From: a virus
Strand: one strand, 5' to 3'
Virus record (IMG/VR): IMGVR_UViG_3300020595_000086
Span: 1 to 37,343 of that record
Length of the DNA: 37,343 nt
Shown here: one piece after another, positions 10,147 to 16,803 of the stretch
How the letters are laid out: each line of letters opens with the position of its first letter
How positions within the stretch are numbered: the stretch's first letter is position 1
The notes under the pieces: generated by a model
Database searches by the model: none
Seen by the model: only the letters and a program-made list of their open reading frames with translations
Told to the model about the DNA's origin: nothing
Position numbers and translations under genes: made by a program

Positions 10147-10171
10147 TTTTTATATATTTAGTTGTGAATTG

Positions 10172-10245
10172 TGGAGAATATCGGAGTCGAACCGATGACC
10201 TCCTGCGTGCAAGGCAGGCGCTCTAGCCAGCTGAGCTAATCCCCC
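10172..10245 (-). tRNA. tRNA-Ala (anticodon TGC)
   Basis: The minus strand folds into a full cloverleaf. The acceptor is GGGGGAT paired with ATTCTCC (two G-U pairs), and the D arm follows as GCTC-AGCTGGCTA-GAGC. The anticodon stem CCTGC/GCAGG encloses CTTGCAC, giving anticodon TGC. The T arm ATCGG-TTCGACT-CCGAT closes the structure. The 3' CCA is not encoded, so host CCA addition is needed. It lies between small minus-strand genes and is probably cut from their transcript. Phage tRNAs usually support codons the phage uses heavily; GCT and GCA Ala codons dominate here. Confidence 0.95.
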
Positions 10246-14318: not shown

Positions 14319-14723
14319 CTAGTTGTAGGTTCTGTTTATAATAGCCGAAGAACTTAATCCTTGATAGCGAGGTACATACATAATCTGTTTAATCCACTCA
14401 CTTCCTATAATCTTCTTGTCTTTATAATCATCACCAATTAACATATATCTTGGGGCATATTCCTTAATTGTATTAGAAAGTTCTTTATCTGTTGAAAATC
14501 CTACAACTTCATCAATATATTTGATGGATCTTAAAAATTCCATGCGATTATGAAAATTATTCACCGGTCGATTCTCCCCTTTCGCTTGCCTGATTCTCTC
14601 GTCCGTATCTATTCCCACTATTACTTTCATTCCCATCTGTCTTGCTCGTTGAAACATTTTGATATGCCCCATATGGAGCACATCAAAACATCCATTCAAC
14701 CAAATATTATCTTTATGCTGCAT
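14319..14723 (-). CDS. HldE C-domain-like nucleotidyltransferase
   Basis: The protein has the cytidylyltransferase-fold signature LNGCFDVLHMGH (HxGH intact), followed by VGIDTDERIRQAKGENRPVN, RMEFLRSIKYIDEVVGF, MLIGDDYKDKKIIGSEW and a closing GLSSSAII. This series matches the adenylyltransferase half of HldE/RfaE. That half makes ADP-D-glycero-beta-D-manno-heptose from heptose-1-phosphate. The kinase half is not present. Glycerol-3-phosphate cytidylyltransferase is the main alternative. I prefer the ATG at 14723 (134 aa); an ATG at 14741 would add six residues and lengthen the overlap with the DUF932 gene from 11 to 29 nt. Confidence 0.82.
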   Translation of the reverse strand: MQHKDNIWLNGCFDVLHMGHIKMFQRARQMGMKVIVGIDTDERIRQAKGENRPVNNFHNRMEFLRSIKYIDEVVGFSTDKELSNTIKEYAPRYMLIGDDYKDKKIIGSEWIKQIMYVPRYQGLSSSAIINRTYN

Positions 14724-15522
14724 ACTCCATAGCTTTTGCAAACATATTTCTATTTAAATCAATATCTTGTTTAAAATTCTTAATTATACGAGCTTGTCTT
14801 TGCTTTCCTGATTTAGTATTGTAATAAAAATTACCATTAATGATATTTTCTTGTACTCTATTAAATACTTCCCATAATCCCATACCTTCATCTTCTTTAC
14901 GTTGAGATTCTAATACATTAGTAATTGCAACATCATTAAATGTATTATCTGTTCCTTCAACTCTAATATCAAGTAAAGATTTTGCTAATTCTAATACTTG
15001 ATTTTCTTCTAACTCTACTGATTTCATTTTATTCATAGATTCAACTGTTAGAGGTAATTTTTCAACTATATCTTTAATTAATACTTGTAAATCCTCAAAT
15101 GTATAACCCATATGACGCATTTTAACATCTTCAAATGTTTTATCTGCAATAACTAATCCATTCTCACAAATCATTCTAAATAATCCCGCTGTAAATTGAA
15201 ATGAATTTTTACCATCATGAGAATTTGTCATTAATATTTGTGGATAAACTGTATCTCCATCTTCTCCATCAATAACAATATCTTTATTTCTAAAAACAAT
15301 CATGTGCTTTTGAACACCTTGAGTATTTTTAGTTCTTGCTTTAACTTCCTTTGCATCAACTGGCATCCATCCTAATTCCTCCATATCATCCATTACTTTT
15401 TCTGTTGATATAAATGTATACTTTTCTGTAACATCTGAAGATGGTGATTGAGTAAACACTGAAGGTGCTACATCATTAATTTGTTTTTTACTTAAAATTT
15501 GATTTGAATTTGTATTTAACAT
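14713..15522 (-). CDS. DUF932 family protein
   Basis: The 269-aa protein carries the DUF932 signature: SSDVTEKYTFISTEKVMDDM at the N-terminus, then MTNSHDGKNSFQFTAGLFRM and ICENGLVIAD near residues 106-135. Toward the end comes MGLWEVFNRVQENIINGNF. DUF932 proteins are common on phages and plasmids of many bacteria; their biochemical role is not settled. This gene has its own promoter (15571-15603) with the 15-nt repeat, plus a leader with a small GGC-AATAAA-GCC hairpin. It is therefore probably an early or middle gene. The start context CAAAATAAAAGTTATG fits the recurring pattern. Confidence 0.88.
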   Translation of the reverse strand: MLNTNSNQILSKKQINDVAPSVFTQSPSSDVTEKYTFISTEKVMDDMEELGWMPVDAKEVKARTKNTQGVQKHMIVFRNKDIVIDGEDGDTVYPQILMTNSHDGKNSFQFTAGLFRMICENGLVIADKTFEDVKMRHMGYTFEDLQVLIKDIVEKLPLTVESMNKMKSVELEENQVLELAKSLLDIRVEGTDNTFNDVAITNVLESQRKEDEGMGLWEVFNRVQENIINGNFYYNTKSGKQRQARIIKNFKQDIDLNRNMFAKAMEYAA

Positions 15523-15561: not shown

Positions 15562-15576
15562 ATTTACCCCGTAAAT
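15562..15576 (-). promoter_or_regulatory. 15-nt inverted repeat over the promoter -7 box, candidate operator
   Basis: ATTTAC-CCC-GTAAAT overlaps the -7 box of the DUF932 promoter. It has the same geometry as the copies at 12971, 17282 and 36125. Confidence 0.5.
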
Positions 15577-15603
15577 ATACGAAAGCTATCTCGGGTATCC
15601 AAG
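15571..15603 (-). promoter_or_regulatory. Bacteroidetes-type promoter for DUF932
   Basis: The minus strand reads CTTGG, then TATATTTAC after an exact 20-nt spacer. The -33 box has CTTG instead of TTTG. The leader downstream contains GTAAATAAGGC followed by GCC, a short hairpin that also occurs behind the 17291 and 36134 promoters. Confidence 0.7.
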
Positions 15604-15715: not shown

Positions 15716-15723
15716 GGTCATAG

Positions 15724-15739
15724 ATACATAATTATGTAT
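15724..15739. repeat. Perfect 16-nt palindrome
   Basis: ATACATAATTATGTAT is an exact palindrome. It lies 3 nt upstream of the alternative ATG of the 27-aa peptide. It could bind a dimeric regulator. AT-rich palindromes arise more easily by chance in this genome, so confidence is limited. Confidence 0.35.
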
Positions 15740-15858
15740 TATTACATGCTATTTTAATATTACTAAGTTATTAAGTAAATTATATAAGTATATATTTTAT
15801 CGATGCGCAAAATTTTGTTAAAAAAAGAATCCACACCCCATATATTTTATCCAATATA

Positions 15859-15888
15859 TTTGTATATACAATCGATAGTGTAAATTTG
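15859..15888 (+). promoter_or_regulatory. Plus-strand Bacteroidetes promoter
   Basis: TTTG at 15859-15862, an 18-nt spacer and TAAATTTG at 15881-15888 match the Bacteroidetes -33/-7 consensus exactly at all fixed positions. It is the only clear plus-strand promoter in the window and points into the GC-rich island, where no convincing protein gene follows. Confidence 0.6.
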
Positions 15889-15894
15889 TACTCG

Positions 15895-16430
15895 AGCCAT
15901 AAAAACCGCTACAACTTTTCTTGCGCATATACACGCGCGATGGACGGCGGTGCGCCGTGGGTAATTATTACGTACGTACGCGGTACGCCGGCCGCTATTA
16001 GTATTATCGATGTAGGGGATATTACGGTTATGATTAATAATCCAGTTACTACTACCGCGGTGAGCATTTACGCATATGGCCTAACCCAGGTATACCTAGG
16101 TGCTACGGCAGTAGCTATGAATGTATAATTAAGTACTATAGGGTAAGTAACTACATACGGTCAAGGTACTGGCTATCATATCTCCACCGTCGCAATACTT
16201 ACCATTACGGCCCCGCTGTTCACGGCCATTCACACATATTCACACCGCAATCGCCAAGTTATGCGCGTTTATTTGTGATTTGTTTGTGAACACATTGTTG
16301 TTCATGTATATATTTGGGTACCTTCGAGAAGGGTTGGCTCGCGCAACACAAGGGTTAATACAGGGTGTACCTTAGGTCAGATACCCCCAATTGAGTTGTT
16401 CACCTACTATAGTGAATGAACGTATGACAG
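15895..16430 (+). ncRNA. Candidate structured noncoding RNA or replication-control island
   Basis: This island is clearly GC-richer than the surrounding DNA and is crowded with inverted repeats. Examples are ACGGCG-GTG-CGCCGT (15944-15958), ACCGCGGT, GGTATACC beside ACCTAGGT, GCTAC-GGCA-GTAGC (16102-16115), TGAACA-CATTGT-TGTTCA (16287-16304), CCTT-CGAG-AAGG (about 16321-16332) and TTCAC...GTGAA (16399-16416). A consensus promoter sits just upstream on the plus strand. An 80-codon plus-strand frame (15886-16128) exists, but its TTG start lies inside the promoter -7 box and its GCG, CGC and ACG codons are unlike phage genes here. A structured RNA or an origin fits better than a protein. Ends are approximate. 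Confidence 0.35.
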
Positions 16431-16468
16431 GACACACTTGATAGTTATTGGTTATACGTTAATTGGAC

Positions 16469-16735
16469 TTAGTATTCACTTGAATCATCCCCACCGTAAT
16501 TCTCCCCACCGTCTGATCTATCGCTGGAATAACCATCCCAATCATCATTATCACTGTCAATCCAATCACTGTTATCTAATATGATAGGTTCTGTTTTGTA
16601 AGCAGCAGGTGAAGGCATACCAGAATAATGACACCAATTATCTTCACTGTCATCTTTATATGGACAATTTGTACAACCATTATCACAACAGTAACCTCGC
16701 TCTAATAAGAATTCTCTTGTTAATGGTTTATTCAT
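16469..16735 (-). CDS. DUF5522-type Cys-rich protein with acidic tail
   Basis: The first 30 residues (LTREFLLERGYCCDNGCTNCPY) match DUF5522, a short Cys-rich family found mainly in Bacteroidetes; the four Cys probably bind a metal. After CHYSGMPSP the rest (about residues 45-88) is a disordered acidic tail of Asp, Ser, Gly, Glu and Tyr, not expected in that family. I use the ATG at 16735 (88 aa); a longer frame would need TTG at 16744. The start overlaps the preceding 23-codon frame by 4 nt (ATGA). The acidic tail could mimic DNA or bind a basic host protein. Function unknown. Confidence 0.75.
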   Translation of the reverse strand: MNKPLTREFLLERGYCCDNGCTNCPYKDDSEDNWCHYSGMPSPAAYKTEPIILDNSDWIDSDNDDWDGYSSDRSDGGENYGGDDSSEY

Positions 16736-16803
16736 AAATCCCAAACGCTTTTACGTTTGTATTTTACCCACTTATATTTAATCCAATTGAATAATCTAGT
16801 CAT
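16732..16803 (-). CDS. Very small basic peptide, 23 aa
   Basis: A 23-codon frame from ATG 16803 overlaps the previous stop and the next start (both short overlaps), filling the gap exactly as real genes do in this phage. The peptide is basic and aromatic (MTRLFNWIKYKWVKYKRK then SVWDL). It contains the inverted repeat CAAACG-CTTTTA-CGTTTG near its 3' end, which might instead be an operator or hairpin before the DUF5522 gene. The coupling supports a gene; the size leaves doubt. Confidence 0.45.
   Translation of the reverse strand: MTRLFNWIKYKWVKYKRKSVWDL

Follow-up and report, generated by a model that had tools for sequence, protein, structure and literature searches.

The locus and its neighbours

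The window considered in this work, i.e., the whole stretch of DNA that was analysed, is a 37.3-kb viral contig from IMG/VR (37,343 nucleotides) in which almost every gene lies on the minus strand. Among cultured phages it is closest to the Flavobacterium phages immuto (Immutovirus, 160 kb, T4-like), with a protein identity of 40% for DUF932 and of 44% for the baseplate wedge, and the host and biology of the window phage are inferred from immuto. A tRNA-Ala (TGC) gene is found on the minus strand at 10171-10245. The GC-rich island that the sequence-only reading had delimited at 15859-16430 is real, with ~42% GC vs. ~28%, and the values along the sequence are 0.39-0.42 across 15751-16500 compared to roughly 0.22-0.31 for most of the window. 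On one side the island is flanked by a small DUF5522 gene (16469-16744), and on the other by a micro-protein gene followed by the DUF932 gene (14713-15522):

14713..15522, minus strand: DUF932 gene (Pfam PF06067, E=4e-31), the usual downstream neighbour of the element described below
15571..15583, minus strand: promoter-like box TTCGTATATTTAC before the DUF932 gene and outside the element, a 13-mer recurrent in the contig G001
15632..15721, minus strand: micro-protein gene adjoining the element (29 aa, hydrophobic), with homologues of 24-32 aa in many relatives

The micro-protein is probably a single membrane helix. Its family (24-32 aa; MTMEKTNKEPAVALMYFIIMITVFGLAQL in the window and, e.g., MKNKIDISPLIYVIIMVIVFTTAL elsewhere) is conserved at the protein level beside the element in many relatives. 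The 13-mer TTCGTATATTTAC occurs 12 times in G001, a 164-kb contig syntenic with immuto, on the coding strand every time and mostly preceded at promoter spacing by a TTTGG-/TTGG-like box; nine of these 12 boxes fall at 53-67 kb, and none was found in immuto over all but positions 50001-57200.

Architecture and conservation of the element

The island makes up most of a noncoding DNA element that has several parts, is present in a single copy and is oriented along the minus strand, as the genes are. The conserved sequence also reaches to the left beyond the GC-rich interval, where an AT-rich part with box C extends it to ~15781. Along the minus strand the order is part A, a variable GC-rich spacer, core B, and an AT-rich tract containing part C:

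16252..16417, minus strand: part A, block GTATTAACCC..GC..GCCAACCC..TCGA..AATATATACATGAACAA (nhmmer model, 28 distinct copies, E<=1.3e-16, where the profile E-values are descriptive because the models were built from the same family)
16268..16291, minus strand: 10-bp tandem repeats GTTCACAAAC AAATCACAAATAAA, iteron-like and part of A (autocorrelation)
15963..16251, no strand: variable GC-rich spacer from A to B, the A-B gap being 264-2094 nt across loci
15855..15962, minus strand: part B, the 110-nt core GTCCATnn-GCGTGTATATG...TACACYATCGATTGTATATAC(AA/TT)ATAT (nhmmer, 50 distinct copies)
15859..15888, plus strand: promoter-like TTTG-N18-TAAATTTG, a textbook match that is complete in few homologues
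15722..15850, no strand: AT-rich tract directly after the core, a candidate unwinding region (GC aligned on the core)
15781..15805, minus strand: part C, CATCGATAAAATATATACTTATATA, a direct repeat of the B box (pattern scan)

An ATATAC box is common to A, B and C and points in one direction in all three, while CATCGAT is common to B and C. The spacing within core B is near-constant over its 110 nt, and its orientation is that of the neighbouring genes. When relatives are aligned on this core (24 relatives), the GC content drops from 0.52 to 0.28 within ~100 nt, and the 220 nt that follow the core contain the box C pattern for 25 of the 50 copies (two of them at the very core edge) compared to 4 of 612 control windows. 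The repeats of part A are phased, with an autocorrelation of z=8.7 at lag 10 and of z=5.3 at lag 11 over 28 relatives that are related and hence non-independent, which means that these and the other shuffle z-scores overstate significance. They are clearest in L030, where they read GTTCGCAACG ATTCATAACG ATTCACAACG.

Relatives were gathered via DUF932, which gave 80 related loci, and conservation was traced by BLAST of the intergenic region against the DUF932 loci, by pattern scans of viral contigs, and by profile searches. Dozens of uncultured relatives of Flavobacterium phage immuto share the element. Core B is represented by 50 distinct copies, with no contig or locus holding more than one, and G001 has a single copy in its 164 kb. 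In every locus that holds both parts (61 of 61), A is found on the strand of B and upstream of it, although the number of independent A-B cases is smaller than 61, because some contigs are represented several times among these loci (28 distinct copies of part A). The two loci with A only stop 13 and 319 nt beyond it; for most loci with B only the sequence likewise runs out too soon for A, and the main exceptions with sufficient room are L133 and L139. Searches of isolate phages found no counterpart of the element in 50,697 phage records, and the core B model has no match in immuto over all but positions 50001-57200 (7.2 kb). In bacterial and archaeal genomes the sole match is L152, which is partial (27 nt) and probably due to chance.

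The element is usually found upstream of DUF932 in the relatives, and the genes around it are nevertheless subject to turnover. The local genes of L139 match nothing around the other copies, with the core and box C still present, and the structural proteins of this contig are about equally far from those of G001 and of immuto. L133 resembles this case in that the core is kept, but it has no protein match whatever. A protein gene of family F6 (MLKNFKSGYAVSGS..., ~165 aa; ~65620-66120 in G001) falls within the A-B spacer of G001, L085, L100, L132 and L094. In approximately 20 of the 50 copies the flanking genes converge on the element, an arrangement in which a promoter located there would give only antisense RNA. 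The right flank of the core in L019, L030, L131, L137 and others is a convergent junction with a short minus-strand set of genes (membrane protein F4 and thioredoxin-like F8). Taken together, the gene turnover, the spacer genes and the convergent flanks make it unlikely that the element is simply the promoter or operator of a single neighbour.

Palindromes, coding potential and RNA structure

The sequence-only reading had described the island as dense in inverted repeats, which holds for palindromes of 6 bp and fails for longer inverted repeats, few of which stand out. The excess of 6-bp palindromes is about twofold, with 28 observed vs. 14.6 +/- 3.8 expected from dinucleotide shuffles (0 of 300 shuffles reach 28), and ATCGAT occurs only three times in the window, at 15799, 15871 and 16006. 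The excess is weaker in most relatives. Palindromes as a functional feature in their own right (e.g., restriction decoys) were therefore rejected, as most relatives do not share the excess.

The island indeed carries no credible protein gene, as had been claimed, its sole ORF being one of 80 aa with a TTG start on the plus strand. Among 33 homologues there is no third-position relaxation in the frame that starts at the conserved ATG of this plus-strand ORF, and the ORF and the short frame beginning MD... were rejected as genes, with no codon signature and a median length of ~25 residues.

The promoter-like TTTG-N18-TAAATTTG on the plus strand is present, as had been reported, but it is not conserved, being complete in 4 of 37 distinct homologues; TTTG is kept at these positions in 16 of 37 distinct copies, and TTTG together with TAnnTTTG in 4 of 37. 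Matches of this type number two in the window, with 2.4 expected by chance. The string ATCGAT-N-GTATATAC at the same site is invariant in 37 copies, partly by construction because these copies were collected with patterns that contain it. The match is best read as part of core B. We also considered GTATATAC as a genome-wide promoter motif and rejected it, as it is not general.

A structured plus-strand RNA behind this promoter, the first proposal made for the island, does not survive comparison: beyond the unconserved promoter, it lacks a stability signal, covariation and a match in Rfam. The motivation for such an RNA, on either strand, is the presence of a GC island within an AT-rich genome, together with the fold of the minus strand, which in the window alone is better than that of shuffles (z=-2.88). 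The plus-strand fold of the island is no better than shuffles (z=-0.23), and over 22 relatives the mean fold z is -0.25 for the gene strand and 0.06 for the other strand, equal to control stretches. A minus-strand RNA was rejected accordingly, as the value obtained in the window fails to hold in these 22 relatives. Covariation among homologues, which had been suggested as a check, did not emerge from consensus folding: an alignment of 30 core sequences gives no consensus structure on either strand, the covariation terms for five aligned full-length islands are positive (i.e., penalising) on both strands, and a search of Rfam returned nothing credible, at the gathering threshold or at E<=5. Protein genes also break up the spacer in some relatives. 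A structured noncoding RNA on either strand thus seems very improbable to us, and the element illustrates that GC-rich islands of AT-rich phages are not necessarily RNAs.

The element as a candidate replication origin

The reading that best fits the new evidence is the one that the sequence-only reading had offered as its alternative, that the element may be the replication origin of the phage. We put this forward tentatively, on sequence evidence, and with slightly more doubt than confidence. An origin fits best because the element is conserved, single-copy, multi-box noncoding DNA whose repeats follow the helical phase and whose flank is AT-rich, all of which, along with one copy per record and the fixed order and orientation of the parts, are observed directly in the aligned records. 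Iteron-type origins have short direct repeats in phase with the helix, an AT-rich region beside the boxes, and one copy per replicon at a conserved position. The element has the repeats (lag-10 z=8.7, inflated by relatedness as above), the AT-rich region (GC of 0.28 after core B), and one copy per replicon in a conserved position. It also persists where the local genes are wholly different (L139 and L133) or where a gene interrupts it, which argues for an origin. We envisage an initiator, encoded by phage or host, whose binding sites would be the phased 10-bp repeats in part A together with all three ATATAC boxes. Once bound, it may cause the DNA to wrap and the AT-rich tract next to B and C to open, and the opened tract would then allow loading of a phage DnaB-type helicase and a DnaG-type primase, from which replication would start. 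G001 encodes DnaB-, DnaG-, PolA-, SSB- and RecA-like proteins.

Other observations bear less favourably on an origin. GC skew, the proposed check, lends no support, as the window shows no skew switch where the element lies, and the profile is the same in immuto, which lacks the element. No DnaA-family initiator was found in G001, L058 and L059 are the only relatives with classical DnaA boxes (TTATCCACA) in their part A stretch, and no replication gene adjoins the element. Speaking for an origin are the conserved place of the element in a genome syntenic with immuto and the repeats of immuto itself. In immuto (NC_055915, L112), two arrays of ACCCGTT with a spacing of ~12 bp, at 66317-66411 and 66770-66889, flank a noncoding gap and sit 2.3-2.9 kb past DUF932. 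They account for 13 of the 18 plus-strand occurrences of ACCCGT in that genome, and it is possible that these arrays are the origin of immuto.

Several other functions were weighed. The boxes could be operators, or promoters of an unusual kind, that put the early-type gene cluster around them under a single regulator, and this would suit the position of the element where the TTCGTATATTTAC-type boxes cluster (53-67 kb of G001), the common direction of the ATATAC boxes, and the occurrence in part A of many relatives of TATACTTG, which differs from the Bacteroidota -7 box by a single change. We nevertheless consider a transcription-control region unlikely, given that approximately 20 of the 50 copies lie between convergent genes, that the adjoining genes turn over while the element stays, that the boxes are absent before other genes of G001, and that the plus-strand promoter match is unconserved. 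A resolution site for dimers or another site-specific recombination site of the Xer type would account for the variable gene content around the element, and the core centre TGTATA is what we take to be the central hexamer of E. coli dif. The flanking arms are unlike dif and the conserved DNA is far longer than a Xer site, which makes this reading quite improbable.

The distribution of contig ends raises the further question of packaging. Among the DUF932-carrying contigs of L002-L081 that reach at least 20 kb, 12 of 33 end within 500 bp upstream of DUF932 vs. 0.5 expected, with ends that range from inside the core to ~500 bp upstream of it. A pac site, at which terminase would recognise the element and start headful packaging, is consistent with this pile-up of ends in the element, with genomes that are apparently circularly permuted, and with a single-copy, multi-part noncoding element of fixed orientation. 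Against it, the ends are spread over ~600 bp rather than set at one position, many contigs cross the element, and in G001 it is located ~48 kb from the large terminase gene (terL) and not near it. Not every pac site lies near terminase genes, and we regard this function as improbable. A fixed genome terminus was rejected, as it is made unlikely by the spread of ends around the core, by the many contigs that cross, and by near-complete contigs seemingly opened at differing places (G002 and G003, relatives of G001, look like the same genome as G001 opened elsewhere). Our guess is that the pile-up reflects an assembly break in a fast-varying stretch.

Returning to the replication origin, a further claim can be made, that its architecture is an undescribed one, in which three ATATAC boxes of one direction, 10-bp repeats in helical phase and a gene-tolerant GC-rich spacer would be recognised by a putative initiator and be widespread in uncultured immuto-related T4-like phages. 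This is possible, and rather doubtful at present. If the element is an origin, it provides a direct route to the replication starts of an environmental phage group and to a search for the new initiator; otherwise, it would stand as a conserved DNA site for a putative binding protein. Annotation of noncoding control elements in uncultured phages is very rare, and the element comes with a usable sequence model.

Among known systems, GOLLD and ROOL are large phage-associated noncoding RNAs, which the element resembles in that it is long, noncoding, GC-richer and carried by a phage, and from which it differs by having no Rfam match, covariation or stability signal. The origins of T4 consist of a promoter plus an R-loop. 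The element would likewise be a noncoding origin of a T4-like phage and may have a promoter, but the promoter match is unconserved and the conservation lies in the DNA boxes. The arrays of immuto (NC_055915, 66317-66889), which to our knowledge have not been characterised previously, share with the element the phage group, the neighbourhood, direct repeats that flank a noncoding gap, and uniqueness in the genome, while their ACCCGTT repeats at ~12 bp are unrelated in sequence and do not match the core B model. The origin of the phage satellite PLE is a noncoding region with RepA-bound iterons that is needed for replication (PMC7145576). Compared to iteron-type origins, the candidate element is distinguished by three spaced ATATAC boxes and a spacer that can carry genes, and it is like those of plasmids and phage satellites (PLE, PMC7145576) in being noncoding, in its short direct repeats, in occurring once per replicon, and in its AT-rich neighbour.
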